From assembly GCA_947503175.1 (NCBI GenBank), contig CANNCO010000001.1:1-64000 (forward strand): a stretch of 64,000 nucleotides of DNA, written 5' to 3'. The position numbers and the translations under genes were made by a program. Source of the stretch: an uncultured Paracoccaceae bacterium (GTDB lineage Bacteria > Pseudomonadota > Alphaproteobacteria > Rhodobacterales > Rhodobacteraceae). The notes under the pieces are model-generated. The model was given only the letters and a program-made list of their open reading frames with translations, made no database searches and was not told where the DNA came from. Below are positions 6,335 through 43,332 of the stretch, in pieces (within the stretch, counting starts at the first letter, position 1; each line of letters opens with the position of its first letter).

Positions 6335-6496
6335 GTGCCTCTTCCTCTTTGCTGATCTGCCGCGCCCGTCCCGGCGCTTGTTCGCGTTCGCCCATAGCCT
6401 AGGAGACACCCCGGTGCCCTGCAACGGTTTTTGGCCCGGTGCTCTTTTCCTCGGGCGGTGTTCTGCTATGACGACGCCCTAGTTCGAGGAGCGCCG

Positions 6497-8164: not shown

Positions 8165-8173
8165 TCCATTCGA

Positions 8174-9232: not shown

Positions 9233-9340
9233 CGTACCCCCAGGAAATCGTCAACCCAACCCTCTGCGTTCCTAACGGAAAGGGGTGAATCGACTCTCAA
9301 CGGTCCGGGACGGGTTCGATCAAATTGAACCGATCACAGG

Positions 9341-10291: not shown

Positions 10292-10372
10292 ATTGGCCCT
10301 GCGACTATGTTCGCGCTAACAAAATCCGTTGTCGGGTGAAGGTCAACCGGAAAGCCGCGCCAAAGTGACAAA

Positions 10373-10396
10373 GGCCGGCCCGTTTCCGGACCGGCC
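10373..10396. terminator. hairpin, probable terminator
   Basis: ggccggcccg-tttc-cggaccggcc, 10-bp stem with one mismatch, in the intergenic gap. Confidence 0.5.
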
Positions 10397-10422
10397 CCGC
10401 AGTCTGACCTCCGGAGGGGATG

Positions 10423-11346: not shown

Positions 11347-11628
11347 TGGTGACCTCCGGTTATGCTGTTGTGGAGATCAAGATAGCTGGCGGGGGCGATT
11401 GGGAAAGGGGCAGGCGATCACAAGATGGTAAGACGGCCGGACCGTGGGCGCGGATTTGCTTCATGAAACCTGCTTAGAGGTGGAGGTTGCGCGCGGTGGC
11501 GAAGGCGGGTAGGGCGCATATCTGCTTAAGCCACTGAAACAGAACAGATTTCACAATGTGTATTTCATGCGCATACCATGCGGAAACCATGCGCATGGAT
11601 GACAGGGATCTGACATGTACCTGGCCCC

Positions 11629-13017: not shown

Positions 13018-13144
13018 GGCGCGACCCTAGCGGCGTGTGTTCTGCGCGGACAGAGCTTTTTCGCCTGACCTTGCAGAGGCGAGCGCCGTTGGCCTGAGGG
13101 CGACTCGCTTTGGATGTTCGGACGAGAAGACGAGCGGGTTGGGG

Positions 13145-14467
13145 CTAGAAGCTAAGGGGCTTCTGCAGCAGGGGCAGGACATCGGCCATTTCGGGCCCGC
13201 GCTCCTTGCCCGTCACAGCGTGGCGGAGCGGCATAAAGAGGCCGCGGCCTTTGCGGCCCGTTGCCTCTTTCACCTGTGACGTCCAGTCGCCCCAGGTATC
13301 AGGGCCGTAGGGATGGGGCGGCAGGAGGGCGATGGCCTGTTCCACGAAGTCGCGGTCTTCGTCAGCGACCATCGGCGTGGCGCCGTCACGGAACAGTGCC
13401 CACCAGTCGGCCATCTCGGCGCGGGTGGCGATGTTTTCGTGCACGACCTCCCAGAATCTCGCGGCGAGGGCGCCGGGGACGCCGAGTTCTTTGATTTCGG
13501 CGGCGACAGCCTCGAAGGGCAGGGCCGCGATGGTGCGGGCTGTCAGGGGTTTGAGGTCGTCGGCGTCGAACTTCGTCGGCGCCGCGCCGAAGCGGGTGAT
13601 GTCGAAGCCCTCGACGATCTCATCAAGTGATGTGCGCAATTCCACCGGATCGGCGCTGCCGAGCCGCGCCATGAGCGAGAGGATCGCCATGGGCTCGATC
13701 CCTTGCGCGCGCAGATCGCGAAGGGCCAGCGTGCCGAGGCGTTTCGACAGCGCCTCGCCCTGCGGGCCGGTCAGAAGCGAATGGTGGGCGAACCGGGGGG
13801 CTGTGCCGCCCAGGGCCGCGATGATCTGAATCTGGGTGGCCGTGTTCGTGACATGGTCGGCGCCGCGCACGATATCGGTGACACCAAACTCCGTGTCATC
13901 GGCGACCGAGGCGAGGGTGTAGAGGAACTGACCGTCACCGCGGATCAGGACCGGGTCGGAGACGCTGGCGGCGTCGATCGAAATCGGGCCGAGGATGCCG
14001 TCGGTCCATTCGATCCGTTCGTGATCGAGCTTGAAGCGCCAGACGCCGTCGCCGCGTTCGGCGCGGAGTTTCGCGCGGTCGTCGTCGGAAAGTGCCAGCG
14101 CCGCGCGGTCATAGACCGGGGGCTTGCCCATGTTCAAAAGCTTCTTGCGCTTGAGATCCAGTTCGGTGGGCGTCTCGAATGCCTCGTAGAGCCGGCCCGA
14201 GGTCCGCAGTTCATCGGCCGCGGCATTGTAGCGGTCGATGCGGCTAGACTGATGTTCTTCCCGGTCCCAAGTGAGGCCCAGCCATTCAAGGTCTTCGCGG
14301 ATCGCGTCGATATACTCCTGCTTCGAGCGTTCCGGGTCGGTATCGTCGAAGCGCAGGATGAAGGTGCCGCCCGCCTTACGCGCGATCAGCCAGTTGAACA
14401 GCGCCGCGCGCAGGTTGCCGATATGGATATAGCCGGTGGGCGAGGGCGCGAAACGGGTGGTGGTCAT
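13145..14467 (-). CDS. gltX: glutamate-tRNA ligase
   Basis: TRFAPSPTGYIHIGNLRAALFNWL (HIGH-type) and ALSKRLGTLALRDLR (KMSKS-type) motifs. Confidence 0.94.
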   Translation of the reverse strand: MTTTRFAPSPTGYIHIGNLRAALFNWLIARKAGGTFILRFDDTDPERSKQEYIDAIREDLEWLGLTWDREEHQSSRIDRYNAAADELRTSGRLYEAFETPTELDLKRKKLLNMGKPPVYDRAALALSDDDRAKLRAERGDGVWRFKLDHERIEWTDGILGPISIDAASVSDPVLIRGDGQFLYTLASVADDTEFGVTDIVRGADHVTNTATQIQIIAALGGTAPRFAHHSLLTGPQGEALSKRLGTLALRDLRAQGIEPMAILSLMARLGSADPVELRTSLDEIVEGFDITRFGAAPTKFDADDLKPLTARTIAALPFEAVAAEIKELGVPGALAARFWEVVHENIATRAEMADWWALFRDGATPMVADEDRDFVEQAIALLPPHPYGPDTWGDWTSQVKEATGRKGRGLFMPLRHAVTGKERGPEMADVLPLLQKPLSF

Positions 14468-14527
14468 GGAACTCTCCTTAGTGCGCGCCCTCTTTCATAT
14501 GGGCGGCGTTTTGTCCATATGGCGGGA

Positions 14528-14932
14528 ATGGAGTGGACCACACGCACCGCGCCCGATCTGGCGGATATCGAGGCGATGGCGCAGGCCGCGATTGCGGCGC
14601 TGCCCGAGGCCTATTGCGTGGCGGCGGCTGAGGTCGTGCTGCGGGTCGAGGAATTTGCGCCCGAGGCGATGCTCGCCCAGATGGGGCTAGAGGACGGGTT
14701 CGACCTGACCGGCCTTTACGAGGGTATCCCCCTGACCGAGAAATCGGTAGCGGATCAGCCGATGGTGCCTGATACGATCTGGCTGTTCCGGCGGCCCATT
14801 CTGGATGAATGGGTGGCGCGCGGCGACGTGGCGCTGGCCGATCTGGTGGGGCATGTGTTCGTGCACGAGCTTGCGCATCACTTCGGGTGGTCGGACGCGG
14901 ATATCGCGCGGATCGACCGGTGGTGGGAATAG
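14528..14932 (+). CDS. metallopeptidase family protein (zincin-like)
   Basis: HVFVHELAHHFGWSD HExxH motif; 134 aa; start within ORF 13703-14932. Confidence 0.85.
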   Translation: MEWTTRTAPDLADIEAMAQAAIAALPEAYCVAAAEVVLRVEEFAPEAMLAQMGLEDGFDLTGLYEGIPLTEKSVADQPMVPDTIWLFRRPILDEWVARGDVALADLVGHVFVHELAHHFGWSDADIARIDRWWE

Positions 14933-15300
14933 GCCGGCACTGTTGCGGGGCGCTGCCCCGGTTCCGCATCCTCGTCTGAAGCCGCGCGGTTGCCGGCGTT
15001 TGTGCCGCGGGCATCCCGGCATCCGCCGAGCGGCGAAAACTCTGTCGGCGGATCGTCATTTCTTTTCTTGACAACGGCTGAGCATTAATAAATCATTAGG
15101 TTTGCTAATGATGCATTAGCATTTGTGATTGTGACTGTCGGCAATGTGTATGTGACGGTCTCGGGGACGGTGTCGAGGCGAGGGCCAGGGCTATGATGCA
15201 TGGAGTTTCGAAGCGGCCAACGCCTGCCCGGAGACCGTAGAGAAAGTGTAACGAGTGGGGCGTTTTTTGCCCCGTGTTCTGTAGGGGGCAGTTCGACCCG

Positions 15301-15492
15301 ATGAGTGAGAAGACCTGGTTGCGCGACGCGCTTCACGACCTGAGAAAATATGCGCAGGAAAAGGGGCTGAAAGAGGCCGACGATGCCCTGAGAATCGCAA
15401 TTATCCGTGTGTCGCTGGAGGCGGATATTCCGACGGGCCTTTCGGTATCCGAACTGATCAGGGATCAGGACAAGGGCGGCGGGGGCGTGTGA
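15301..15492 (+). CDS. small hypothetical protein
   Basis: 63 aa MSEKTWLRDALHDLRKYAQEKGLKEADDALRIAI..., amphipathic composition. Confidence 0.5.
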   Translation: MSEKTWLRDALHDLRKYAQEKGLKEADDALRIAIIRVSLEADIPTGLSVSELIRDQDKGGGGV

Positions 15493-16218
15493 GCGGCCGC
15501 CCTTCTGAGCCATCAACGTTGTGACCGTTCGGCCTGCAATGCGACGATGGGCGCTGTAGGCCCAGGCCACAGCCTTTCACCACCTTATCGATACGAGGGT
15601 TCAAGCTGTTCGACCCAAGGATCGCCATATGACGCGGTCCCATCGGTCAGCATTTGCAGGAAACTGACCTCCACGCGAAACCGGTCGGTTCGTCAACCAT
15701 GGGGAGCGCATAGGGGCTTTTTATGACAGCCGCCCTGCAAAACAGGCCGCGACACCCTCGGCGCGATCCGCCAATGGTCCACCATGCGCTTTGAACAGTT
15801 CCTTTTGAGTGTGCCCGTCCCGCTCGGGCAGTTCGGGGACATCTCCGGTCAGATATTGATGCTCAAGCGCAAACTCTGCGAGACATTCGCCGATTTCACG
15901 CTGCGATCCGGCCATATGATCCGCCAAAGTTCAAAGGGGCTTTGCGATCTGCCCTGAGTCTGTTCTTCGAGAAGTTCACCGAAAGACCTTCTGCCACGCA
16001 CCTTGGGCTGGATATGTGATTGGGCCTTGGAAACCACAACAAGCATGGCTGTTTTCGTGTTCATCGATGCTCCCGAAAGAGGAGTGTTGATGGATCACGG
16101 GCCGCTCAAAGGTGGTCTTGCCGATGCTGGTCCGGGCGGATCGGCACGCGCGGCTTTTCGCGCATTGCCGGCGGCGAGGTCTTTGTTGCCGTGCCCCGGG
16201 TGAGCTTCTATCAGCCAG

Positions 16219-17094
16219 TCACCCCAGAAATCTCTCGACAAGCGCCGCTCCGATACCTGCCCGTTCGGCGACCGGCCGTGACACGGTCAGCGCCGCTGCC
16301 GCCTGACCGAACCGGGCCGCGTGTTTCAGTGTCCCGCCTCCGGCCCACGCCGCAGTCAGCGCGCCCACGAACATGTCCCCCGCGCCATGGGTGCTGACGA
16401 CCTTGACGGGATGGGCGGGAAGATGAGCGGGCCTACCATCTTCGTAGAGGACAAGCCCTTCATCCCCCAGCGTCACGATCACGGCGGCGGGGCCCTGCCG
16501 CGACAAGGCCTGTGCCGCCGCGACCGGATCGTCCGTTCCGGCCATGTCCGACGCCTCCACCCGGTTCACGACCAGGAGGGCGCAGCGTTCCAGCAAAGCC
16601 GGGTCGACCGCTCGGGCAGGGGCGGCATTCAGGATCAGCCGGACTTTGTCCGAAAGCCGCGCGGCAAGCGCCAGATTGGCCGCTTCCGGCACTTCGTTCT
16701 GCATCACGCAGACCCGCACGCCCTCGGGCAGCATATCCATACCGTTATTCAGAAGGTTCGCCGCCGACACGATCACCGCGCCGTAGCCACCTGTCTTGTC
16801 GGTGATGGCAACACTCATCCCCGAGGCGCCCGGAACCTCCGCCACCCGGGACCGGTCGACCCCGGCACGATCCAGTTCCGCCAGCATCGCCCGGCCCGCC
16901 GCATCTCTGCCGACCCGGCCGATCATCGCGACCGATGCGCCCATCCGGGCCGCAGCCACGGCCTGATTGCCGCCCTTGCCGCCAAATCGGTAGTCGACCG
17001 CGGTTCCTACCAGCGTCTCGTCCAGCCGCGGCAGGCGCGGGGCATCGACCACGACATCGTGGTGCAGCGCCCCGAGAACCAGAACCCGGCTCAT
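16219..17094 (-). CDS. PfkB/ribokinase family carbohydrate kinase
   Basis: RFGGKGGNQAVAAARMGASVAMIGRVG and STHGAGDMFVGALTAAWA signatures. Confidence 0.9.
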   Translation of the reverse strand: MSRVLVLGALHHDVVVDAPRLPRLDETLVGTAVDYRFGGKGGNQAVAAARMGASVAMIGRVGRDAAGRAMLAELDRAGVDRSRVAEVPGASGMSVAITDKTGGYGAVIVSAANLLNNGMDMLPEGVRVCVMQNEVPEAANLALAARLSDKVRLILNAAPARAVDPALLERCALLVVNRVEASDMAGTDDPVAAAQALSRQGPAAVIVTLGDEGLVLYEDGRPAHLPAHPVKVVSTHGAGDMFVGALTAAWAGGGTLKHAARFGQAAAALTVSRPVAERAGIGAALVERFLG

Positions 17095-18077
17095 GCGCCG
17101 TAAAGGGCGCGGGCGACGATCCGCTGGCTGACCGCCGCATCCTGCCGGGCAATCGCTGCGGCAAGCTCTGCATTTCCGGTCAGTTCCCCGGCCACGGCCC
17201 GCAACCGTTCCGTCAGCCGGATGTTCGTGCGCGCCTCTTCCACCGGGTCCAGCCCGCCATGATCGGGAAACGTGTCGAAATAGATCACGCCGTCATAGCC
17301 GATCCGGGCAAGCTCCACGAACAGCTCCACCGTCTGAACCGGATGCACGGTGCCGACCATCAGCCCGTCATCGCGCTTGCCGTAGCCGTCGTTCAGATGG
17401 ACGCCCAGCAATCGGGAATGGCGCGCAATCAGATGCGCCGCATGGGCCGGCATCTCGTCGGCATAAAGCACATGGGCAAAATCCAGTGTGACGCCGATAT
17501 TGTCGCGACGGGCCTCTTTCACGGCCAGAAGTGTCGTGGCGACATCGGGCATCAGCGCATAGGCCCTGGGTTCGTTCGGTTTGTATTCGATGGCGATCTT
17601 CACATCCCGGTTGTGGTCCGCAACGGCCTGAAGCGACGCAATCGTGTCGTCCCACATCCGCGCGTAGTCGCCCTGAAACGCGTAATCGACGCCATCCTGC
17701 CCCATCCAGAGCGTCATCAGGTCCCCGCCCATGGCCGCAAGCGCATCGATGCCCGCGCGGGTCACATCGATGGCCGCCTGCCGCACCTTCGGATCGGGAT
17801 TGGTGAAGGCGCCGATCGCGAATCCGGGATCGGTATAGTACCGCATGGCGAGGCCGTTCAGTGCCATCCCGGCCTCGCCCAGAAGCACGGAGACCTGTTC
17901 CGGCGAATGCGCGGCGAAATGATCGGGATAGTTCAGGTCGGCGGCGTCCAGACCGTCCACTCGCGCCGCCGCGCCAATCATATCCGCGACGGTCGGTTTC
18001 GAAACGTAGCAAACAGCCGCCTTGAACGCGTTCAGGCGCGCGGCATAGCGGGGCCGGTTTGGCAGGGTGGGGGGCAT
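17091..18077 (-). CDS. sugar phosphate isomerase/epimerase (xylose isomerase-like TIM barrel)
   Basis: AIEYKPNEP, NIGVTLDFAHVLYA, LLGVHLNDGYGKRDDGLMVGTVH; stop overlaps kinase start. Confidence 0.82.
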   Translation of the reverse strand: MPPTLPNRPRYAARLNAFKAAVCYVSKPTVADMIGAAARVDGLDAADLNYPDHFAAHSPEQVSVLLGEAGMALNGLAMRYYTDPGFAIGAFTNPDPKVRQAAIDVTRAGIDALAAMGGDLMTLWMGQDGVDYAFQGDYARMWDDTIASLQAVADHNRDVKIAIEYKPNEPRAYALMPDVATTLLAVKEARRDNIGVTLDFAHVLYADEMPAHAAHLIARHSRLLGVHLNDGYGKRDDGLMVGTVHPVQTVELFVELARIGYDGVIYFDTFPDHGGLDPVEEARTNIRLTERLRAVAGELTGNAELAAAIARQDAAVSQRIVARALYGA

Positions 18078-31401: not shown

Positions 31402-31911
31402 GAGCCGGGACTAGCGCGCGGGCGGCCCGCGCGCAATCCGCTACATAACCGCCGGTGTTGAACGTCAAATAACTTTGACCTTCACGTCACCTACCTGACC
31501 CAAAACGAAAAACCGGACCTTCGCGCAGGATGCGGTGAAGGTGTCGAAAGAGCCCATGCTGTGAATTCGAATTTCTTGCTGCATGCGCTCGCAGCACGCA
31601 TAATGCTGCACATGTGTGTTTCCTGTTACTGCTACGATACCGAGAAACCGGCCATCCGTTGCGTGCACAACGGAAACAGGGAAATCGATTTACGTCTCGC
31701 GAACATTGCTGCTGTTCCAGGGCATGCCGGATTGGCGCAGTGCTTTCAGCCGGGGTTTGGTGCCACGCTCGCTTGAGCCCCAAATAGCCAGAACTGTCCG
31801 CTGTTGTTTCACCGAATTGTTCGTTCGAGCATTGGTCATTCGCCAAGCAAGTAGAGCTGTGGTGTCCGCGCGGTGCTGATGTTGGGCGGGGGGAGGATTG
31901 GAGGGCACAAC

Positions 31912-32544
31912 ATGCCAAGCGTTCAACTTGCCGCAATCACCTCGAAACACCGAGCTTGGAACAAGGGTCGGATCATCGGCCAAAAACGACCGCTCTTACC
32001 AAAACAGGTCTGGGGGATCCGAGCGCGGCTTGAACTTGCGGACAACCTTCGCGATCTGGCGCTGTTTAACGTGGCAATCGACAGCAAATTGCGCGGCTGC
32101 GATCTGGCGAAGCTAGCGGTCGCCGATCTGGTAAGAGATGACCGCGTCAGGGAACGGGTATCGGTCATCCAAAGCAAAATCAAAAGACCTGTCCAATTCG
32201 AACTCTCTGAGAATACCAGAGAGACGGTGACCTCATGGATCAAGTCGCCGGAAATGATTGGGTGCCGGTTCATGTTCCCCAGCCGATTTCATGACCGACT
32301 ACAGATCTCGACCCGACAATATGGTCGCTTGGTGCAGGATTGGGTAAGATCTATCAATCTGGACCCGAGCGGATACAGTACACATTCTCTTCGCCGGACC
32401 AAAGCCGCGGAGATCTATTGGAAAACTGGAAACCTGAGAGCGGTTCAGCTTTTGCTTGGTCACACAAAAGTCCACAGCACTGTGCGCTACTTGGGTGTCG
32501 ACTTGGAGGATGTGCTGAGCATCGCCGAGCGAATCGACATTTGA
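31912..32544 (+). CDS. tyrosine-type recombinase/integrase (catalytic domain only)
   Basis: Arg (DSKLRGCDL), HxxR-type HSLRRTKA, LLGHTK and STVRYLGVD (Tyr nucleophile) catalytic motifs; no typical N-terminal core-binding domain. Confidence 0.88.
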   Translation: MPSVQLAAITSKHRAWNKGRIIGQKRPLLPKQVWGIRARLELADNLRDLALFNVAIDSKLRGCDLAKLAVADLVRDDRVRERVSVIQSKIKRPVQFELSENTRETVTSWIKSPEMIGCRFMFPSRFHDRLQISTRQYGRLVQDWVRSINLDPSGYSTHSLRRTKAAEIYWKTGNLRAVQLLLGHTKVHSTVRYLGVDLEDVLSIAERIDI

Positions 32545-32749
32545 ATCAAGTTGGCGGTCGACATTAGTCGGCCGCCAATTCAGACCGGACGCAAGGCTCA
32601 TCTGTAGCATGCGGCTGGTGACGCCATGTTTTGGGATAATACATAACGCTCAGACGACCGCTACAGCACCTTGAATTTGTTCATTCCGTTTGACTTTCCG
32701 CCGTTCCCATCGATTGCTTCCGCGGCGTATACAAGCGTCCTTCCAATCA

Positions 32750-33373
32750 TCACAAGGTTGCTTTCACAGCATCACGCAATTCCGGATAAAGTATCCAATT
32801 TCCGGGATCTGTTTCATCTTGCGGCTCGCCCCGAACTACAAGAATTGAACCGTATTCCACTGCAGCGGGCTGCACTTTCGAATTGGCCTCCAAGGAAAGA
32901 TAACTGGATATCAAACGGCCTGCACTCGCGAGTGATCTGTTTGCCGATGCCAGCGACTTATACCCCGCTGCATTGGCCAATTGCGCTTCTGTTAACCCGT
33001 CTGCATCTGCGACCGACAATGCTGTCAGCATCGCGTGCTGCGTGCGGGTCAGCGCGACGTGGCCGAGTGCTTCAGCATATTCCTCGATGCTCGGCACCGA
33101 GATACCTGTGCGCGGGTCTTTTCTGCGGGCTTCAATCCTGCGGTTTTCCCTTGCGTCGATGACGTCGTGCAATGCTGTGATCGCGACCTCTTCGGTCATG
33201 CCGCTAGCTTCGGCGATCAATCCGCGCGCCTTGGTTGGCGGTTTTGCAAACGCGCGGGCAACGAATTTGCCTGCGAGGGGCCCTGACTTGATCTGATATC
33301 TGCCATGTATGCCGACCTGGATCTGGGGCGGTGTTTCTTTCTTGTTGTCCTTGACTTTCTTCTTCTTGGCCAT
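32750..33373 (-). CDS. hypothetical protein with Lys-rich N-terminus and possible helix-turn-helix region
   Basis: MAKKKKVKDNKKET...; ALTRTQHAMLTALSVADADGLTEAQLANAAGYKSLASANRSLASAGRLI resembles a wHTH; start chosen at internal ATG. Confidence 0.6.
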   Translation of the reverse strand: MAKKKKVKDNKKETPPQIQVGIHGRYQIKSGPLAGKFVARAFAKPPTKARGLIAEASGMTEEVAITALHDVIDARENRRIEARRKDPRTGISVPSIEEYAEALGHVALTRTQHAMLTALSVADADGLTEAQLANAAGYKSLASANRSLASAGRLISSYLSLEANSKVQPAAVEYGSILVVRGEPQDETDPGNWILYPELRDAVKATL

Positions 33374-33479
33374 GCCTTTGAAGAGGTCATGGCCCGCATC
33401 TGATCGGCCTTGTGCACTGGAACGTGTCATGGGGGTTCCTTTCGTGGATCGTTGAGTTTCATGTTTCGGTGTGACCGCA

Positions 33480-34113
33480 TTACGCGGTCAGCCGCCGTGC
33501 TTCGGCGAAGGAGACCAGCCGTTCGCCCCTTTCATCCAAGAGCGCCAGCTTTGCGCAGCGCAGGCTGTCACGGAGAGTGAGATGCCGGGCGTTGGCGAGG
33601 GCGTCGTGGTCCCGAAGGACCTCGGGAGGACGGTAGAACGGGATGCGGCTGGCCAGGTGATGAACATGCTGGACGCCGATATTCCCGGTATTCCTGGACA
33701 GTCAGCGTCGGCAAGTCGCCAATGCCGCGACGGTCCAGATTTCCGGTCGTCGCGTGCTGGATCGAGTGGTTCTTGCGCCAGACATCATAGGGCGTCAGCG
33801 TGACCAAGCCGCTGGCCCGTCCCATCCAGTCGCACGCGCGCCGACTGCGAACGAGGGACCCGTGGCCGCAATCATGCTGGATCATGAAAAGATGGACCAG
33901 GAAGGCCGCGTTCCCCAGTGCCAGAATGGGGGCCAGCTCTGTGCTGACCGACAGCATCCACCAGGCGACGGCCCAAATCGCGACAAACGGCGCAACCGTT
34001 ACGAACAGCTCGAAAAGGCTTCGGGCCGTGTGCGGCGTGCTGTATTGCGCCAGAAGGCGCCGCCATTCCGAGGCATCGCGTTGTGCTTGGGTCGTCTTAG
34101 TGGGTTCGGTCAT
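33480..34113 (-). pseudogene. fatty acid desaturase, internally deleted and frameshifted
   Basis: N-terminal part to TVQEYRE includes HDCGHGS and HSIQHATTGN boxes; C-terminal part in another frame reads GNIGVQHVHHLASRIPFYRPPEVLRDHDALANARHLTLRDSLRCAKLALLDERGERLVSFAEARRLTA-stop; middle missing at ~33684-33687. Confidence 0.88.
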
Positions 34114-34152
34114 GGCGATGGGGCGCCCCGCAGGAGCGCCCCCTTGCCTGTT

Positions 34153-34359
34153 TCAGGCGAGCGCGATGTTGGTTGCGCTTTCGCGGCCGTCACGACCGGC
34201 CTCGACGTCGAACGTCACCTTCTGGTCGTCGTTCAGCGTGGTCATGCCCGCGCGTTCGAGTGCGGAGATGTGCAGAAACACATCCTTTCCACCCGTTTCC
34301 GGTGCGATGAAGCCGAAGCCTTTGGTGGCGTTGAACCATTTCACTGTGCCATTGGCCAT
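34153..34359 (-). CDS. cold-shock protein (CspA family)
   Basis: MANGTVKWFNATKGFGFIAPETGGKDVFLHISALERAG, 68 aa. Confidence 0.95.
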   Translation of the reverse strand: MANGTVKWFNATKGFGFIAPETGGKDVFLHISALERAGMTTLNDDQKVTFDVEAGRDGRESATNIALA

Positions 34360-34611
34360 GTGAGTTTTCCTTTTTGATCGCTGCCCACGACATGCGGCAG
34401 CCCGGCTTCTTACGACAATGTCGAGCGCTGTGAGCCGGTGAAGGAAAACAGAAAGTCGAATGGAGGTCAGTAGCACCCTATACGTGGTAACCGCCCGGGG
34501 CGATTACAAGGCGCATCGCATGGCATTGATGTTTCCTTTGCCAAAGGGGCATCGATCCACTATGGCTAGCAAGCTGCCGGGCACCTTGGCAGCGAGCAAA
34601 GGAAAGCCCGC

Positions 34612-34746
34612 ATGTCGTTCAACGACCTGGCAAAGAAAGAGGCCGCCCACAAAAAGGCCTTGCAAGAAAAAGATGCCGCATCACCAACCAAAACCGACGA
34701 TAGCCCCGCATCTGGGACCAAGCCGGTCGATCCGCCACAGGACTGA
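34612..34746 (+). CDS. small hypothetical charged protein, 44 aa
   Basis: Manual translation MSFNDLAKKEAAHKKALQEKDAASPTKTDDSPASGTKPVDPPQD with SD-like aaaggaaag upstream; below the ORF-track cutoff. Confidence 0.5.
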   Translation: MSFNDLAKKEAAHKKALQEKDAASPTKTDDSPASGTKPVDPPQD

Positions 34747-34784
34747 ATGGCGCGCCGCAGGATTTCTGGTTCGCCCACGAAGCT

Positions 34785-35021
34785 CTAAGACCGGCGCGAC
34801 AGGTTTCCTGCGTCGATGATCTCGTTGATCAGATCGGCGGTTGCCGTATGCAATTGCCGTTCCGGTTCCGGGCCGTGTGCTTTTTCGTGGGTTTCCGCAG
34901 CATCGCGTAGAATACCGACGATCTCGCGTTCGGGAAGCACGTTGCGATCTAGCAGGGCGAGCAGCAAGGCCTCGCAAATCGAAAGTGCAGCCATGCCCGC
35001 GGGGTCTTGTTGGTCTGACAT
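34785..35021 (-). CDS. small hypothetical protein, 78 aa
   Basis: MSDQQDPAGMAALSICEALLLALLDRNVLPEREIVGILRDAAETHEKAH..., protein-like composition. Confidence 0.65.
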   Translation of the reverse strand: MSDQQDPAGMAALSICEALLLALLDRNVLPEREIVGILRDAAETHEKAHGPEPERQLHTATADLINEIIDAGNLSRRS

Positions 35022-35175
35022 CGCACCGTTCCTTTTCCGTTCGTCGCATCGCGAACGGGAGAGGTCGTGATGCTCTTGAACACTGTCACAGAAGTCTCTA
35101 TCGTCCGCACTGATTGAAAGCAGCCTCCATGATTAGTAACTTTTGACGTGTTCTCCGGTTCGAGAGGGCCCGGTA

Positions 35176-35907
35176 ATGGCACTTGAATCCAGCCCGCTTG
35201 CCCGAAAGCTCTCTGCGTTCGTAAAGCTTTCGACGTCAGAACTTTGCGTCCTGGAGCGGTTGCATGAACGGCGGAGATCCTTCTCAGCGGGGCGGGATCT
35301 TGTTCACCAAGGCCAATCGGAACAGGCGGCCTACATTCTGGCGGCTGGCTGGGTCGTGTCTTACAAGATCCAGCCCGACGGTTCGCGCCAGATCGTTGAT
35401 TTCCAGATACCGGGGGACTTTCTGGGGCTGCGCAGCGTTCTCTTGCACACGTCCGATCATGGTATCGAACCGATCGTCGAAATCGAGGCGGCGGAGGTTC
35501 TGGTGGGCGATCTTCTGCAAGCCTTTGCCGAGACGCCACGGCTTGCCACTGCCATTTTGTGGGCTGTGTCGCGCGACGAAGCCATGGTTGTCGAGCACCT
35601 GGTTGGGCTGGGACGACGCGACGCGGATGCGCGAATGGCGCATTTCTTACTGGAGCTTGGCGTAAGGCTGTCACTCGTGGGAATGGGCGACAAGAAAGGC
35701 TATGCGTGCCCGCTCACGCAGTATCATTTGGCCGATGCTCTGGGGTTGAGCGCAATCCATGTCAACCGTGTCTTGCGCAGACTCCGGGAAGCCGGGCTCG
35801 TCACGTTTCGGGACGGCTTCGTGGTGTTTGATGATTACGAGGGTCTGGTGACAGTGGCCGATTTCGATCCGGCGTATCTGGATCATGCGCGGCCTCTCTT
35901 GCCATGA
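35176..35907 (+). CDS. Crp/Fnr family transcriptional regulator
   Basis: Cyclic-nucleotide-binding-like beta-roll plus C-terminal HTH (LTQYHLADALGLSAIHVNRVLRRLREAGLV); no FNR-type N-terminal Cys cluster. Confidence 0.93.
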   Translation: MALESSPLARKLSAFVKLSTSELCVLERLHERRRSFSAGRDLVHQGQSEQAAYILAAGWVVSYKIQPDGSRQIVDFQIPGDFLGLRSVLLHTSDHGIEPIVEIEAAEVLVGDLLQAFAETPRLATAILWAVSRDEAMVVEHLVGLGRRDADARMAHFLLELGVRLSLVGMGDKKGYACPLTQYHLADALGLSAIHVNRVLRRLREAGLVTFRDGFVVFDDYEGLVTVADFDPAYLDHARPLLP

Positions 35908-35910
35908 AAC

Positions 35911-35939
35911 GGCCGCCCGAGGTCTGGCTTCGGGCGGCC
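35911..35939. terminator. perfect 10-bp hairpin between convergent genes
   Basis: ggccgcccga-ggtctggct-tcgggcggcc; no strong T-tract. Confidence 0.5.
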
Positions 35940-35965
35940 CAAGACTACACAGCGCGCTTATGGCA

Positions 35966-36166
35966 TCACATTAAGGCGCGGCTGGCTTCCTTGAGTTCCT
36001 TATGCGCCTCTTCGTCGTTTTCCGCCTCATGCGCCTTCTCGGCGGCCTGGTAATGCTTGAGCGCCGCCGCTTTCTTGGCGCCTTCGGGAGCCTTGTCCCA
36101 AGCGGCCTTGACGGAGGCCATGTGCTTGACGGTCTGGTTCTCTTGGCTTTGATTTTCTTCGTTCAT
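35966..36166 (-). CDS. small charged coiled-coil hypothetical protein
   Basis: 66 aa MNEENQSQENQTVKHMASVKAAWDKAPEGAKKAAALKHYQAAEKAHEAENDEEAHKELKEASRALM. Confidence 0.65.
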   Translation of the reverse strand: MNEENQSQENQTVKHMASVKAAWDKAPEGAKKAAALKHYQAAEKAHEAENDEEAHKELKEASRALM

Positions 36167-36337
36167 GCAGTGTCCTTTCCTGGACAATCCGAGAATAAGA
36201 GACGCAAAGACAATGCGGTACGAGGGAGGCACCGCTTGTGCCCCGCGCCTCTAAGATACTCGGAAAGATCGCCACCCCGAATTGCGGTGGTCACGTCCCA
36301 CCTAACCGGTTCCAAGGCGCCGACGTACTGACTGAGG

Positions 36338-36754
36338 TTAGCCCGTCTGCGCCAGATAGAAGATCCGCGCAATTACCGCGACGCCAATGAGCGCCGACAC
36401 GACCCAATACAATGAAACCTGTGGAAAGTTGGCGTTGCCTGTTTGACGTGCCTTGGTAAAAACAGGCGGTGCCTGCTTGGGTAGCAATGACACGAGCTTG
36501 GCCACCTTGCTCCCGCTTGCAAGAGCAAGCGCAGGTACGTCGGTCATTGCAACAAGATGTGCTTTCAGCCGGACTTCGGCGTCGTCCCTCTGAAGACGAG
36601 CAAGCTCTTTCGCTTCGGTCCAAGGTTCGAGCCCAAGACGCGCAAGCGCCGACAGAACCGTCACACCGGCACCGGCTATGTCCTCACCCACCTCTGCAAA
36701 CAGGAAGCGATCGTAGTCGGTGCCATCCGGGTGGAGGACGTCAGAGGCGGACAT
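36338..36754 (-). CDS. hypothetical protein with C-terminal transmembrane segment
   Basis: MSASDVLHPDGTDYDRFLFAEVGEDIAGAGVTVLSALARLGLEPWTEAKELARLQRDDAEVRL... VSLYWVVSALIGVAVIARIFYL. Confidence 0.65.
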   Translation of the reverse strand: MSASDVLHPDGTDYDRFLFAEVGEDIAGAGVTVLSALARLGLEPWTEAKELARLQRDDAEVRLKAHLVAMTDVPALALASGSKVAKLVSLLPKQAPPVFTKARQTGNANFPQVSLYWVVSALIGVAVIARIFYLAQTG

Positions 36755-36996
36755 GGGTTCCCTTTCAGCGGGAGGGTGAAATGAAGACTTACAGGCGAGC
36801 GTTTGAACTCGCGGACCGGCTTTCACACTCATCCTGACAGCAAAGAATTTGTCGGGTGCTAACCTCGATCAGCATGGTGCCCGGTCGAATTGGCTAGTGT
36901 ACGCCCAATTGCCTTGCTTTGACGAGGCCTCCTTTTCGACGCGTGCCGCAATGGCGCGGCCGGAAAGTTCGGCATTCAATTTAATGGAGACCCGGG

Positions 36997-37311
36997 ATGC
37001 TCACGCGTTCGACGACATCAAAGGTGACGTTTTGGAACGCCTTCATGTTCGGGGACGACCAACAGGAGTTGCCGCCCGGCACATACGAAATCGTTGTCGA
37101 GGAGGAGCTCTTGCAGGGCCTCAGCTTCGAGGCGTACCGACGCACCGCGACCTACCTGTTGGTCCACGGCAAAGGGAACCAAGCCGGTCAGACGACGATG
37201 CACATGACCACACAGGAGAATCTGGAGCACGCCATCGCATGTGACAGAGCCCATTGTGAAACAACTCAAAACAGCGAAGCGGCGCTTTCCCCGCAGGAGG
37301 ACACGACATGA
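36997..37311 (+). CDS. hypothetical protein, LPxGxYxI motif family
   Basis: LPPGTYEIVVEEELLQGLSFEAYRRTATYLLV; ATGA overlap with next gene. Confidence 0.7.
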   Translation: MLTRSTTSKVTFWNAFMFGDDQQELPPGTYEIVVEEELLQGLSFEAYRRTATYLLVHGKGNQAGQTTMHMTTQENLEHAIACDRAHCETTQNSEAALSPQEDTT

Positions 37312-37661
37312 CCACACCTGAATGGCTGAAACCCGGTATCTATGGCGCGCTTCTCGGCGCTGTGTTTGTCGGCATTGTCGGGTTTTCCTGGGGCGGCTGG
37401 ATGACCGGCGGCGGCGCGAACAAGATGGCAAGCGAAATGGCTCAGGACGAGGTTATTGCGGCGCTTGTGCCGTTTTGTCTCGACATGTCCCGCGCGGACA
37501 ATGAGCGCGTCGCAAAGCTGGCGACGATCCGCGACGCGACGTCGTTCAATCGCCGCACTGCCATGATGGAGACCGGATGGGCAACCATGCCGGGAGCGGA
37601 GGCTCCGAACCGGGACTTGGCCCAAGCGTGCCTGGACGGTCTGGAACTTGATGCGTCGTAG
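37308..37661 (+). CDS. small membrane-anchored hypothetical protein
   Basis: 117 aa with N-terminal hydrophobic Gly-rich helix (YGALLGAVFVGIVGFSWGGWMTGG). Confidence 0.7.
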   Translation: MTTPEWLKPGIYGALLGAVFVGIVGFSWGGWMTGGGANKMASEMAQDEVIAALVPFCLDMSRADNERVAKLATIRDATSFNRRTAMMETGWATMPGAEAPNRDLAQACLDGLELDAS

Positions 37662-38502
37662 TATGTTCACTTCATTGTCTCTCTGTTCGAAAGCAGCTGG
37701 TCTTTTGCTGACGGCAGGCATGGGCCGAAGCGCAGCATCAATGGCGCCGCTCTTTGCCCTCGCGGTTTCTGCGCTTGTCGCTGCCGGATCACCATCCGTC
37801 GCACAATCCCAAACCGCGCCCATGCCCGAAAACGCCCATGCCAGAAGTTATGGCGGAGGTTGGGACTGCGACCGCTCTTTTCGGCGCGATGGCGACGCAT
37901 GTCTTGCCGTCATCGTACCGGAGAACGCCTACGCGACGAACCGTACCTATGGTGCGGGCTGGGAATGCCTGCACGGATTTCAGGAAGTCGATGACATGAT
38001 CTGTCGCGAGGTCGTAGTTCCAGACGGCGGATATCTTGACCCATCTGGCAAGAGCTGGAGCTGCCTTCGTGGCTACATGGAGGTCGACGATCTCTGTCTC
38101 GAGATCGTTTTACCGCCGAACGCGTTTCTGGCCAACAGTTCCTTTGGATCGGTTTGGCTATGTGACCGGGGTTTCGAGGTGGATGGCGAAACATGCGCAG
38201 CTATCGCGGTGCCTGAAAACGCATTTCTGAATGGATCTAGCTTTGGGCAGCCATGGACATGTGAGCGGGGATACTTCGAGCGCGACGGCACCTGTGAGGC
38301 TGTGATCATTCCGAAGAACGCCTACTTTGACGATAGGGGTTTTGGACCGGGGTGGAAGTGCAATCGCGGCTTCGCGACTTCCGATGGTGGCTGCACGGAA
38401 ATCGACCTCCCCGAAAATGCGCATCTCGACAGATCGGGAAACCGATGGGAATGCCACCGCAATTTCCAGCGATCGCAAGGGCGCTGCGTTCTGAACGACT
38501 AG
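37651..38502 (+). CDS. secreted Cys-rich tandem-repeat protein
   Basis: N-terminal hydrophobic signal region then seven ~33-aa units of the form PxNAxxx..GxxWxCxRGFxxxxxxCxxixx. Confidence 0.72.
   Translation: MRRSMFTSLSLCSKAAGLLLTAGMGRSAASMAPLFALAVSALVAAGSPSVAQSQTAPMPENAHARSYGGGWDCDRSFRRDGDACLAVIVPENAYATNRTYGAGWECLHGFQEVDDMICREVVVPDGGYLDPSGKSWSCLRGYMEVDDLCLEIVLPPNAFLANSSFGSVWLCDRGFEVDGETCAAIAVPENAFLNGSSFGQPWTCERGYFERDGTCEAVIIPKNAYFDDRGFGPGWKCNRGFATSDGGCTEIDLPENAHLDRSGNRWECHRNFQRSQGRCVLND
37825..38499 (+). repeat. seven protein-level tandem repeats (~33 aa each)
   Basis: PENAHARSYGGGWDCDRSFRRDGDACLAVIV / PENAYATNRTYGAGWECLHGFQEVDDMICREVVV / PDGGYLDPSGKSWSCLRGYMEVDDLCLEIVL / PPNAFLANSSFGSVWLCDRGFEVDGETCAAIAV / PENAFLNGSSFGQPWTCERGYFERDGTCEAVII / PKNAYFDDRGFGPGWKCNRGFATSDGGCTEIDL / PENAHLDRSGNRWECHRNFQRSQGRCVLND. 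Confidence 0.9.
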
Positions 38503-38589
38503 CGCTCGATCCAAATTGAAACGCAGTTCAACCGCCCGAGCGCTTCATGTGATCGGACCCGGATAAACCCGCTCGGCAAAGGAAAAATC

Positions 38590-39768
38590 ATGGAAGCTAA
38601 CAACGCAGAGAAGCCAACGACGCGGCTGTCGACGATGGGTCCGCAAGCCCCACCGGACCGAGTCAGCAAGCCCCTGAATACAGAGACTCCGACCGCAGTT
38701 GTCTACTGCGAGGGGAACTTCGGACGGATCGACGGAAAGACAGCAAATGGGCTTGTCCGTCACTCACAAGCCTACCGTGTTCTTTCGGTGATCGACAGCC
38801 AGCTTGCCGGGCGCGACAGCGGGCAGGTGTTGGACAATGTCAGCAACGGCATTCCCATCCTTGAAGACATCGACGCTGCGGTGGCGCGAGAAGCAAGCGT
38901 CCCCGATACGCTGATCTATGGGATGGCTCCCTCGACTGGAAAGCTGGCGCTGCCGGATCGAGAGGTCGTTTTGGATGCGATCATGCTCGGTATGAACATC
39001 GTCAGCGGGCTGCATGAATATCTCGATGATGATCCCGAGATCTCATCGGCTGCTGATGCAGCCAATGTGACGATCCGCGATATACGCAAACCTCGACCCA
39101 GCAAAGATATGCGCCTGTTTGACGGAAGCGTCTCCAAGGTGAACGCGATCCGCATCGCGGTGCTGGGAACCGATTGTGCAATCGGCAAGCGTACAACGGC
39201 GACTGTCTTGGCGAAGGCACTGAACGCCCGTGGCATCAAGACTGTCCTTGTGGGCACGGGTCAAACCGGCCTGATGCAGGGGGCCAAATACGGAATCGCG
39301 ATGGATGCCGTACCACCTCAGTTTTGCTGCGGGGAACTAGAGCGTGTGATTGTCGCGGCATCTGATGACGAAGACCCAGACGTTATCCTGATCGAAGGAC
39401 AAGGGGCGCTCAGCCATCCGGCTTTTTGCACCTCGGCGTTCATTCTGCGCGGCAGCCAACCGCAGGGCGTCATTCTTCAACACGCGCCGCAGCGCTCCCA
39501 CCGATGCGACTTTCCCACCTTCCCTATGCCGGACACAAAAAGCGAAGTCGTCCTCATCGAAGCCTTTGCCGAGACACGGGTGGTCGGCTTGACGATCAAT
39601 CACGAGGCAATGACGGATGCCGAGGTGGACCTGGCAATCGAAACGCTTTCGCGCGAACTCGACATCCCGGTGACGGACGCGTTGACCCGTCCGGACGCGC
39701 ATCTGACCGATATGGTGCTAGCCGCCTTTCCGCAGCTGCGCCGTGTTCCTCTCGTGGTTGCGGAATGA
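38590..39768 (+). CDS. DUF1611 domain-containing protein (DgcN-like, P-loop fold)
   Basis: AVLGTDCAIGKRTTATVLAKAL P-loop-like motif, VLVGTGQTGLMQGAKYGIAMDAVPPQFCCGELE, IEGQGALSHPAF typical of DUF1611. Confidence 0.85.
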   Translation: MEANNAEKPTTRLSTMGPQAPPDRVSKPLNTETPTAVVYCEGNFGRIDGKTANGLVRHSQAYRVLSVIDSQLAGRDSGQVLDNVSNGIPILEDIDAAVAREASVPDTLIYGMAPSTGKLALPDREVVLDAIMLGMNIVSGLHEYLDDDPEISSAADAANVTIRDIRKPRPSKDMRLFDGSVSKVNAIRIAVLGTDCAIGKRTTATVLAKALNARGIKTVLVGTGQTGLMQGAKYGIAMDAVPPQFCCGELERVIVAASDDEDPDVILIEGQGALSHPAFCTSAFILRGSQPQGVILQHAPQRSHRCDFPTFPMPDTKSEVVLIEAFAETRVVGLTINHEAMTDAEVDLAIETLSRELDIPVTDALTRPDAHLTDMVLAAFPQLRRVPLVVAE

Positions 39769-40886
39769 CCACGCCGCGTGTCGAGATTGACCTTGGCAAG
39801 ATCACTCAAAACGCAAGATGTCTCGTCCGTCGTCTTGGCGCGCGTGGCATCTCTGTCACCGGTGTGACCAAGGCCGTTTCCGGTCATCCAGACGTCGCAA
39901 AGGCCATGCTGGACGGCGGCATCGCCGACTTGGTAGACGCGCGCATCAATAACATCATTCGGATGCGGGAGGCAGGGATCCATTGCCCAATTTCGATGAT
40001 CCGCGCGCCGATGTGGCACGATGTGGAGAACGTCATCCGTTGCTGTCATGCGAGCTACAACACAGAGGTGGACACGATCCTGAAACTTGGCTCTGCCGCG
40101 CGGCAGCAGGGCACTGAACACGATGTCATCCTATTGGTCGAAATGGGTGATATGCGCGACGGCATCATGCCTGAAGACCTCAACGAGGTCGCGTCGTTGG
40201 TCGTTGCAACGCCGGGCGTCACCCTCAAGGGGATCGCCGCAAACTTCGCCTGCATGGGCAACGTCGCGCCGACGGCTGGCGACATGGCAATGCTCTCGCG
40301 ACTGGCCGACCAGGTTGAAGGCGAATGCGGACCCTATGTGGCCCTGGTGTCTGCTGGCGGCTCGGCCAACTTGGCGTGGGCGCTTGGTAATGGAGCGACC
40401 GGACGGATCAACAACCTGCGTTTGGGCGAGGCGATCCTGTTGGGCATCGACCCCGTTTCGGGGCAATCGATCGATGGCCTTCATACAGATGCATTTGCTC
40501 TTTTCGCCGAAGTAATCGAAGCAAGGCTCAAACCGAACTCAATGTCGATTACATCGAGTGCACCGAACTACGGGAAGCTCGCACTGGTTTCGACAGAGGA
40601 TCAACTAAACCGTGCCGTCCTAGCTGTCGGGAGACAGGACACGGATGCAAGCGGCCTGATGCTGCCCTCGGGGATCGAGTATGTTGGTGCGTCGAGCGAT
40701 CACACCGTTGTCGACATGGGTGAATCCGACCTGTCCGTCGGGTCCGAGATGAAGATGGGCATGAACTACAGCGCGCTCATGCGGGCGATGAGCGCACCGG
40801 ATGTCGAAAAAGTCGTGCATCGCATGCTGCCGGTGATCGGGACGGTCAAAGACACCAGACCCCAGCCGCTTTTGAAGCTGATATGA
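39765..40886 (+). CDS. alanine/ornithine racemase-like PLP enzyme (fold type III)
   Basis: TPRVEIDLGKITQNARCLVRRL, PLP-Lys region SVTGVTKAVSGHPDVAKAML, NNLRLGEAILLGID; ATGA overlap with DUF1611 gene. Confidence 0.87.
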   Translation: MTTPRVEIDLGKITQNARCLVRRLGARGISVTGVTKAVSGHPDVAKAMLDGGIADLVDARINNIIRMREAGIHCPISMIRAPMWHDVENVIRCCHASYNTEVDTILKLGSAARQQGTEHDVILLVEMGDMRDGIMPEDLNEVASLVVATPGVTLKGIAANFACMGNVAPTAGDMAMLSRLADQVEGECGPYVALVSAGGSANLAWALGNGATGRINNLRLGEAILLGIDPVSGQSIDGLHTDAFALFAEVIEARLKPNSMSITSSAPNYGKLALVSTEDQLNRAVLAVGRQDTDASGLMLPSGIEYVGASSDHTVVDMGESDLSVGSEMKMGMNYSALMRAMSAPDVEKVVHRMLPVIGTVKDTRPQPLLKLI

Positions 40887-41064
40887 AGCTCGAATGACTC
40901 ACCCAGCCACCCAGTGCCATCATGTTTGGCTGGAAATTAAAGCGTCAGACGCAGGTACAAAACCGGGGTTCCCCGGTCCCAAAGGCATCCCGACCCAAGC
41001 ATCGCACGACCTTGGCGTTGCTCACTGCCGCGAGCGGGCCACTTTGATGAAAGGAACCACCACA

Positions 41065-41592
41065 ATGGACAACCAGAAGATCATGGCCGTCGTGGTATTT
41101 GACCGGCCTTTCAACATGCCCGGCTTCGATGAAACACTTCCTGCGGGTGAGTACGATATCGAGACCGAGCTCGAGCTCGCCTCGCCCCCGGATCACCGAG
41201 ACCCCGAAGCTTGGAAGGCTTCTGTGATGATCCATCTTCTTCCGCGTGCGTCCCATCCGGGGTTGATACGCGGTTTGTTGGTTTCGCTGGTGGATTTCGA
41301 CAATGCCCGCGCGAGGGATAAACTTACCGGGAAGCAGGTGTCTGAAGTCCTTCTCGACGAGATGCTGGCGGATCCGATGGTGCAACTCGTTATGCGGGCT
41401 GATGGAGTGTCCGAAGGGCAGTTGCGCCATCTCTATTCGGAATCGCGGACAACACAGACCGATACCGATCTCCTTGACCCGAAGTCTGATGACCATGGCC
41501 CGCTCGCACTGTCAGGAGAAAGCTCCGAGAACGATGTCGCCGAGAGTAAAGTGACGCCATGCCGGCCCAGCAGTTTATCCCCTACGGAGTAA
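41065..41592 (+). CDS. hypothetical protein, second LPxGxYxI motif protein
   Basis: FDETLPAGEYDIETELEL matches the motif region of the 36997-37311 protein. Confidence 0.68.
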   Translation: MDNQKIMAVVVFDRPFNMPGFDETLPAGEYDIETELELASPPDHRDPEAWKASVMIHLLPRASHPGLIRGLLVSLVDFDNARARDKLTGKQVSEVLLDEMLADPMVQLVMRADGVSEGQLRHLYSESRTTQTDTDLLDPKSDDHGPLALSGESSENDVAESKVTPCRPSSLSPTE

Positions 41593-41634
41593 CGATGGAA
41601 ACGCGATTTGCTCGCCATTGAACGTGTGGAGCCC

Positions 41635-41853
41635 ATGCAAACCAAATTACACGACATTGATATGGACCAGCCGAGGCGTGCCCATGGCGACGCACCAAAG
41701 GCGCGTTTGTGCTTGCGTTGCAGAGCTCCGTTTTGGAGCGAAGGATTCGGCCAGCGTATCTGTGCCCGCTGCAAAGGGTCTTCTGTCTGGCGCACGGCAA
41801 TGCCGGAGGGCATCGGTCAAGGGCGGCGCCGTTCCGGCGGCCGATCATATTAG
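41635..41853 (+). CDS. small zinc-ribbon-like protein
   Basis: RLCLRCRAPFWSEGFGQRICARCKGSSVWR: two CxxC knuckles; 72 aa. Confidence 0.6.
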   Translation: MQTKLHDIDMDQPRRAHGDAPKARLCLRCRAPFWSEGFGQRICARCKGSSVWRTAMPEGIGQGRRRSGGRSY

Positions 41854-41862
41854 GTCCAGCCC

Positions 41863-42744
41863 GTGGCGCTGATCACAATCACACACACAACCACCTATCG
41901 CTATCGAACCCCTGTGAGACCTGGTCCGCACAGGCTCATGCTGCGTCCCCGTGAGACGCGGGACCTCACTTTGACGTCTTTCGATCTCGAGATTGTTCCG
42001 CCCGCCCGCATCGACTGGTCCCACGACGTTGCGGGCAACGCCATCGCCGCCGCCAGTTTCGACGTCACAACGGATACGCTTTTGATCCGGTCTCGCACGA
42101 CAGTCGATCTGACGGCGCCTGCCTGGCCTGTTTTCCCGATCGCGGCATCCGCCGCCTCCTATCCATTCATCTACTCTGACGAGGACTGGACAGATCTGGG
42201 AGCGCTTTCAAAGCCTCAATACGTCGACGACGCCGGGCGCTTGTCGACCTGGGTCGAGCAGTTCGTGATGAACAGGCCGACCGATACGCTGTCTCTGTTG
42301 AAAGACATCAGTAGCGGCATCACGGCGCAAATCGCCTATGAGATCCGCGAGGCTGAAGGCACGCAAGGGCCGCTTGACACAATCGACCTGGGCTTTGGCT
42401 CCTGTCGTGACTTTGCCGTTCTCTTGGCTGACGCCGTCCGAACCCTTGGATTGGGGGCCCGCCTGGTGTCCGGCTACCTGTACGACCCCGCCGGTGACCA
42501 GCTTGGATCAGCGGCGGCAGGCTCCACGCATGCATGGGTCGAAGTCTATGTCCCCGGGGCAGGCTGGATCCCGTTCGACCCGACAAACAGGTCCATGGGG
42601 TCAGCGCACCTGATCCCGGTGGCGGTTGCCCGCGACATATCACAGATCACTCCGGTGATTGGCAGTTTTCAGGGCGAGAATGGTGATCTCATTGCCCTGG
42701 ACGTGACTGTCCGGGTTGAGGATGAGCGATTTCGCCGAGAGTAA
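41863..42744 (+). CDS. transglutaminase-like family protein
   Basis: Catalytic Cys/His/Asp context [45 protein letters not shown]-terminal bacterial TGase domain. Confidence 0.92.
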
Positions 42745-43332
42745 TTCGACGGTTGTAAGAGTGGGCCGAAGGAACACGCGGCATTCCACGACTCTTGGGC
42801 ATCTGTCCGATGCGGGCGCTGTTCGACTGCCTAGCCGAGCCGCTGCGCGATCCAGCGCCAGGCGGATCAAGCCTGTGCGGTCCATGTGCAGCCGGAAGAG
42901 GAACTCCGCAGCAGAAAACCCAAAGATCTTTCGTTTCCACGGGCCTGGCGGCGGTATTGCCCTGTATCTCGATCGTGGGCACAAACTGCATCAGATAGGC
43001 TGCTAAGACATGATACCCGAGACCGGCGTTCGATGACTGCTCTGGTAGACACATGCCAAGCGAAAGGAAGAGACCATCTGTCTTTCTGCGCCAGCAATAG
43101 CTGCGCCTACACAGGTCCGCTTCGTCCGCACAGCGGCCCGTCATTGGCTGGGCCGGGACGTTCGGTCTGGGACAGAAATGCGTGACGTTTGGGTCAATGA
43201 TGCCTGACGTCCCTATGTCGTTTGGTTCAGAAAATGGCGCGTATCGAGGCAAAGATGCGCGCCATTCTACAGCCGGTTTACGGGGAAAACGCCCGCGTCC
43301 TTCCCCTCTGGCAGGTTGCACCATGGCCCCTT

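Follow-up and report, generated by a model that had tools for sequence, protein, structure and literature searches.

A DgcN-type DUF1611 enzyme N-acetylates a D-amino acid and DgcA then epimerises the N-acetyl product (EC 2.3.1.312 and EC 5.1.1.25; PMC11747546), and this DgcN-DgcA pathway for D-glutamate is also described in PMC10845958. On the side of stress tolerance, TLPQC/LHR islands are defined by a dna-shsp20-clpG core and also carry xenologues of core genes (PMC7685784), and N-alpha-acetyl-lysine, a heat-induced solute, provides a precedent for N-acetyl-amino acids as thermoprotectants (PMC4685198). Here we analyse 64,000 nucleotides of DNA from an uncultured Paracoccaceae bacterium (assembly GCA_947503175.1, contig CANNCO010000001.1, positions 1 to 64,000 of the forward strand; hereafter the window), in which a DUF1611 protein, P4, is encoded next to a fold-III pyridoxal 5'-phosphate (PLP) racemase, P5. 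We found that these two genes belong to a five-gene operon accompanied by an accessory backbone, and that all of them are cargo of a horizontally acquired, stress-type island. Judged from its sequence, the P4-P5 pair is a new variation on the DUF1611-epimerase theme; no publication on a DUF1611-racemase pair was found in the open-access literature, where two papers on DUF1611 alone proved unrelated.

A DUF1611-racemase pair within a five-gene operon

The initial annotation of this region described eight co-oriented open reading frames (ORFs) with short gaps or overlaps and proposed that they form a single pathway of D-amino-acid or peptide modification acting at the envelope. We confirmed the eight ORFs, all of them on the + strand, and the overlaps reported at 37308-37311, 37651-37661 and 39765-39768 are exact. 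Close spacing does not extend to P5 and P6. The P6 ORF is open from 40894 and most likely starts at 41065, with AAAGGA upstream and homologues of about 177 aa, which leaves a gap of 178 nt after P5. Similarly, the P7 ORF is open from 41608, and its likeliest start is the ATG at 41635 (homologues of about 70 aa). The genes are as follows:

36997..37311, + strand: P1, LPxGxYxI protein; core gene, near P4 in 57/110 loci
37308..37661, + strand: P2, membrane-anchored protein; in 92/110 P4 loci
37651..38502, + strand: P3, exported protein with seven two-Cys EGF-like repeats; in 91/110 P4 loci
38590..39768, + strand: P4, DUF1611 protein, distant relative of the D-Glu N-acetyltransferase DgcN (Pfam)
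39765..40886, + strand: P5, fold-III PLP racemase of the alanine/ornithine racemase family (Pfam, tree)
41065..41592, + strand: P6, second LPxGxYxI protein, accessory backbone (co-occurrence)
41635..41853, + strand: P7, CxxC..CxxC mini-protein, accessory backbone (co-occurrence)
41863..42744, + strand: P8, transglutaminase-like protein, accessory backbone (Pfam and triad motifs)

Pfam searches bore out the family assignments made for P4 (DUF1611_N, 8e-27; DUF1611_C, 3.4e-69), P5 (Ala_racemase_N, PF01168, 2.4e-23, with the PLP lysine Lys36 invariant) and P8 (Bact_transglu_N and Transglut_core), the last of which shows the triad motifs GSCRD, STHAW and FDPTN. P1, P2, P6 and P7 have no accepted Pfam family, nor does P3, for which an epidermal growth factor (EGF)-type match was sub-threshold. 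The seven repeats noted earlier in P3 are there, each holding two Cys that do not vary among homologues; its predicted model resembles EGF tandems (pLDDT 78, pTM 0.43), the best Foldseek match (E 3e-5, with low TM-scores) being to the EGF repeats of NEL/NELL2. By eye, P3 has a signal peptide and P2 a single N-terminal transmembrane span. The predicted structure of P1 is a small beta protein, and its fold gave no significant structural match. Measured against a close relative, dN/dS is 0.09-0.21 for P1-P5 and P8, which shows these to be real, constrained genes, and gene order is retained across many genera.

Whole genomes, plasmids and a scan of genome contigs yielded 100 distinct loci that carry a P4 ortholog, and a set of 110 P4 loci was counted as well; the 80 loci from the contig scan are best matches and lean to close relatives. 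P5 accompanies P4 in 98 of the 100 loci and P3 does so in 82. P4 and P5 orthologs occur in the identical 20 of 199 genomes of the family, nearly all of different genera (p 7e-28), and P3 is present in 16 of these 20 compared with 17 of the 179 others (p 2.5e-11), although such whole-genome counts are not phylogenetically independent. The start and stop of P4 and P5 overlap, usually by 4 nt, in 93 of 99 junctions. Together, the co-occurrence counts and this overlap define the unit as (P1)-P2-P3-P4-P5, with P4-P5 as the tightest pair. The expectation that the genes would be found together in other genomes thus holds for the core, as P1/P2-P3-P4-P5 recurs in many genera. It does not hold for a single eight-gene pathway, which we rejected on the same counts: P7 and P6 lie near P4 in only 31 and 26 of the 110 loci, and P8 in 18, a figure that may take in the paralogue Z297.

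P1-P2-P3 also occur without P4-P5. In 13 islands that lack the pair, picked by P2/P3, the backbone runs GroESL, a small gene, Crp, hypB, Y140, hypA, P1 and P2, followed by variable cargo (HflKC, a 157-aa protein, P3), a transglutaminase, P6, P7 and a second transglutaminase. P8, P7 and P6 are each present in 11 of these 13 islands, and because the order is the same there, we assign P6-P8 to a wider stress backbone, shared with Crp, hypA, hypB, GroESL and P1-P2(-P3), that exists also without P4-P5.

Other genes were seen to follow the pair elsewhere. About half of the P4 loci have two small proteins of 78 and 93 aa after P5 (L031, 10367-11009), which are absent in the window. A PAS-type protein follows P4-P5 in two other families (L171, 4237-5808; L172, 7424-8551), the L172 copy being a PAS histidine kinase by Pfam, and on Vibrio plasmids (L033, L034, L057, L058) a small lipoprotein of the GspS family (type II secretion system pilotin) lies after P5. 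In one alphaproteobacterium (L170, genome G585, 6868-17230) P4-P5 and an uncharacterised gene lie within a pseudaminic-acid locus (pseB, C, F, G, I, H); pseH is present there twice, truncated immediately ahead of P4 and intact after P5, as if the pair had been inserted with a duplication.

P4 and P5 stand apart from DgcN and Orr

P4 is ~33% identical to the DgcN of its own genome, and retains the GTDCxxGK, TGQTG and EGQG motifs as in the solved DUF1611 proteins 2g0t, 2obn and 7xrj. Like DgcN, then, it is a DUF1611 protein with a P-loop and the TGQTG/EGQG motifs, encoded in a two-gene unit with a stereochemical partner enzyme. An identification as DgcN was nonetheless rejected on the curated cut-off and the tree: P4 scores 173 bits on model NF041892 (cut-off 480), compared with 546 bits for the own-genome DgcN, and it forms a clade of its own apart from DgcN (support 100/99). 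The partner also differs, being a fold-III PLP racemase rather than the enolase-type DgcA. No DgcA is adjacent to P4, and the host of P4-P5 additionally carries a complete, true DgcN-DgcA at another locus (L055). DUF1611 proteins partner an epimerase elsewhere too, as in this own-genome DgcN-DgcA and in Halorussus, where the partner is a dipeptide epimerase.

The same pattern was found for P5 relative to Orr, the ornithine racemase, and other alanine/ornithine PLP racemases. P5 aligns with them from end to end, and Lys36 and the remaining family-wide residues are conserved in it, but on the Orr model NF040742 (cut-off 480) the window protein scores 262 bits, with 372 for its Vibrio and 277 for its L040 counterpart, and P5 forms a separate clade (support 100/99); on these grounds we rejected its identification as Orr. 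Its partner is a DUF1611 gene instead of amino-acid fermentation genes, and other racemases that are 37-39% identical to P5 sit in other contexts, without DUF1611. The P4 and P5 trees have three groups in common, one of Roseobacters, one that mixes alpha- and other proteobacteria, and one of Vibrio and relatives, which argues that the pair moved as one.

Further DUF1611 proteins came to light alongside. One that is ~31% identical to P4 and annotated as hypothetical is encoded in 34 records of Erwinia and Dickeya jumbo phages, as in Erwinia phage Alexandra (L169, 6812-7867). At L022, L025 and L030, a third type of DUF1611 protein has a DgcA-like partner of the enolase family; at L022 and L030 it is adjoined by an HDAC-like deacetylase (by eye), and these two loci possibly encode a complete acetylate-epimerise-deacetylate pathway for another D-amino acid.

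A linked Crp/Fnr regulator and a candidate operator

FNR boxes consist of two half-sites with 5-N4-5 spacing. Regions upstream of P1 are poorly conserved between subgroups except for a 14-bp dyad of that spacing, CTAAC-N4-RTCAG, which was spotted by eye. The initial annotation had missed both this operator and the linked regulator. The relevant features are:

35143..35907, + strand: Crp/Fnr-family protein (cNMP_binding and HTH_Crp_2 domains), candidate local regulator
35966..36232, - strand: hypB, small helical backbone protein; kept in 26/110 P4 loci and 9/13 islands without P4
36328..36341, strand not applicable: operator site 1, CTGACTGAGGTTAG, upstream of hypB
36338..36832, - strand: hypA, conserved protein with a C-terminal transmembrane span (by eye), divergent from P1; in 33/110 P4 loci and 11/13 islands without P4
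36859..36872, strand not applicable: operator site 2, CTAACCTCGATCAG, between hypA and P1, 138 bp before P1

Across 2.07 Mb of loci we counted 94 such sites against 13 expected, 72 of which adjoin hypA, hypB, P1 or P2. The own genome (4.0 Mb) has exactly two, both in the island, at 36328 and 36859, and in seven further genomes 19 of 20 sites fall inside such islands. The box is present in 38 of 42 P2 loci with Crp upstream, compared with 4 of 56 without Crp (Fisher 4e-18). The recognition helix, HVNR[VI]LR, is invariant in 44 Crp copies and departs from the ExxSR of the family, just as the half-site CTAAC/RTCAG departs from TTGAT. The FNR N-terminal cysteine cluster is absent, as the window protein has Cys at 3, 35 and 189 only, and only Cys189 is common to the copies. 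The altered half-site fits this HVNR helix and missing cluster, and we infer from the sequences that the island Crp protein binds CTAAC-N4-RTCAG. The operator is a specific handle for tracing further members of the regulon.

Matches to the FNR or CRP consensus in the regions upstream of P1, P2 or P4 did not exceed chance, and such boxes were rejected as candidates. Upstream of Crp itself, an FNR-like pattern occurs in 5 of 25 copies against 1 expected, and not in the window.

A mobile island with stress-related neighbours

The eight genes lie in an island, missed by the initial annotation, at a recognisable insertion site:

31402..43233, strand not applicable: genomic island between truA and ycjX (truA-ycjX adjacency in relatives, GC contrast)
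31873..32544, + strand: tyrosine recombinase/integrase, 223 aa (Pfam Phage_integrase)
33568..34113, - strand: truncated fatty-acid desaturase, 181 aa (Pfam FA_desaturase)
34156..34362, - strand: cold-shock domain protein (Pfam CSD, 2.9e-24)

truA and ycjX are neighbours, with a gap of about 40-250 bp, in 10 of 11 relatives, whereas in the window they are separated by a ~11.8 kb insert whose GC content is 52-61% against 63-68% in the flanks. The integrase is the first gene of the island, and its family is also found in 35 of the 110 P4 loci and beside the Vibrio copies. The desaturase ORF has 181 aa compared with 352 aa in a full-length island relative. No tRNA that could have carried the integration was found in the 64-kb window, nor were convincing direct repeats found at the island ends. 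A role in anti-phage defence was rejected, as PADLOC returned 0 matches for all eight proteins and hypA.

Genes for NhaA, HflKC, GroESL, Hsp20 and cold-shock proteins recur next to P4, be it on Roseobacter islands, on Vibrio plasmids or on prophages, and these recurrent neighbours suggest a stress role. HflKC, NhaA, desaturase and Crp occur in the same set on annotated plasmids of Paracoccus (pPZ02), Phaeobacter (pP97_c) and Ruegeria conchae, and a Vibrio coralliilyticus plasmid has P4, without P5, next to HflKC. That P4-P5 is scattered patchily over genera and plasmids speaks for transfer. The island resembles the TLPQC/LHR islands (locus of heat resistance, also tLST) in being mobile and in carrying stress and proteostasis genes that double functions of the core genome, here GroESL, HflKC, NhaA and cold-shock genes together with a DgcN xenologue. 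In the window this comprises the integrase, the interrupted truA-ycjX junction, the cold-shock gene and the desaturase fragment; GroESL, HflKC and NhaA are found in relatives. It differs from them in other gene content, taxa, regulator and insertion site, and a dna-shsp20-clpG core was absent both among the island genes of the window and among the recurrent neighbours.

On IMG/VR prophage-like contigs (L217-L222, 2581-6056), a cold-shock gene, the antiporter gene NhaA and a P4-type DUF1611 gene without P5 are flanked by a P22-type portal gene on one side and a UmuC-family polymerase on the other.

Proposed function and competing explanations

We give roughly even odds (about 0.5) to the following reading: the operon is cargo of a stress island, is switched by Crp and starts at P1; P1-P3 act at the envelope; P5 racemises and P4 N-acylates an amino acid; and the product serves as a protectant or a sink. 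The island Crp/Fnr regulator would most likely turn on the operon from P1 through the CTAAC-N4-RTCAG site between hypA and P1. P1 as a small beta protein, P2 as a membrane anchor and P3 as an exported protein with EGF-like repeats may then work at the envelope. P5 is predicted to use PLP to interconvert a free amino acid between its L and D forms, and P4, as a DgcN-like DUF1611 enzyme, would N-acylate the D form and so draw the equilibrium towards an N-acyl-D-amino acid. By established chemistry, PLP racemases need a free amino group and cannot act on N-acetylated amino acids, so P5 would have to act before P4 rather than after it. Since no deacetylase is linked, the natural product would be the N-acyl-D-amino acid itself, which, poorly degraded by the host, might be retained as a stress protectant or safe sink. 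P6-P8 would stand outside this chemistry, as part of the wider island backbone. The occurrence of P4 without P5 suggests that acylation by P4 is the essential step and that the host can sometimes supply the D-amino acid. Of the pathway first proposed, D-amino-acid chemistry survives in a racemase and an acyltransferase-type enzyme, and the envelope link fits P2 and P3 by their span and signal peptide; the extension to all eight genes, including the transglutaminase P8, which is mostly apart from P4 loci, does not.

Several observations weigh against this reading. With P4 at 173/480 bits for DgcN and P5 at 262/480 for Orr, both below the cut-offs, neither activity can be transferred to these proteins. 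P4 loci show no conserved deacetylase, transporter or other substrate-revealing gene. The stress genes near P4 were counted by inspection, with no matched control set. Prophages and plasmids of V. coralliilyticus and V. nigripulchritudo carry P4 relatives without P5, so that P5 is not required in every setting. Physical linkage accounts for part of the Crp-box association, both being carried on the same DNA, and about half of the P4 loci have neither Crp nor the box.

An alternative that we regard as possible but improbable is that P4-P5 is catabolic or detoxifying, letting the host use or neutralise environmental D-amino acids in parallel to its DgcN-DgcA. The nearest characterised relative, DgcN, is catabolic, and Roseobacters use D-amino acids (PMC11747546). 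P4 without P5 on prophages and Vibrio plasmids would also fit the removal of a D-amino acid by N-acetylation alone. Yet the own genome already has a complete DgcN-DgcA, for whose DgcA P5 could not substitute downstream of P4, as PLP racemases do not act on N-acetylated amino acids; moreover, the neighbours of P4 are stress genes, and neither a deacetylase nor an uptake gene is conserved among them. Less probable still is the envelope modification of the initial annotation, in which a D-amino acid derivative is put on peptidoglycan, lipid or P3 with coupling by the transglutaminase. The predicted envelope proteins P2 and P3 are the genes most often upstream of P4-P5, and the L170 alphaproteobacterium has the pair inside a pseudaminic-acid locus, but the transglutaminase is near so few P4 loci and mostly in islands without P4-P5, and the Vibrio P4-P5 lack both P2 and P3. 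Modules do recombine, P1-P2-P3 being found with HflKC in the absence of P4-P5, and P4-P5 by themselves in other families; this could instead mean that P1-P3, P4-P5 and P6-P8 are independent cargo hitch-hiking on a shared integration platform with no common function. We hold this to be unlikely too, as the order P2-P3-P4-P5 is kept in many genera with different flanks and the operator heads the P2-P3-P4-P5 operon in Crp-type islands.

The stress-cargo reading with racemisation followed by N-acylation recasts the eight-gene cluster as something that can be tested: a DUF1611-PLP racemase pair, with regulator and operator predicted, that lies in mobile stress islands across Roseobacters and on Vibrio plasmids, P4 by itself being found on prophages. 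Should the pair produce an N-acyl-D-amino acid, this would be a new DUF1611 function, a new means by which mobile DNA raises stress tolerance, and a new marine source of D-amino-acid derivatives. Its most far-reaching form is a tentative proposal that we consider somewhat unlikely: a mobile, dedicated stress-metabolite pathway making an N-acyl-D-amino acid protectant, governed by the island Crp/Fnr protein and its new operator, with islands, plasmids and prophages as its vehicles among marine Proteobacteria.

Elsewhere in the window, the - strand at 4880-6424 encodes many YEGxW-type repeats and by eye resembles a MORN-repeat protein.

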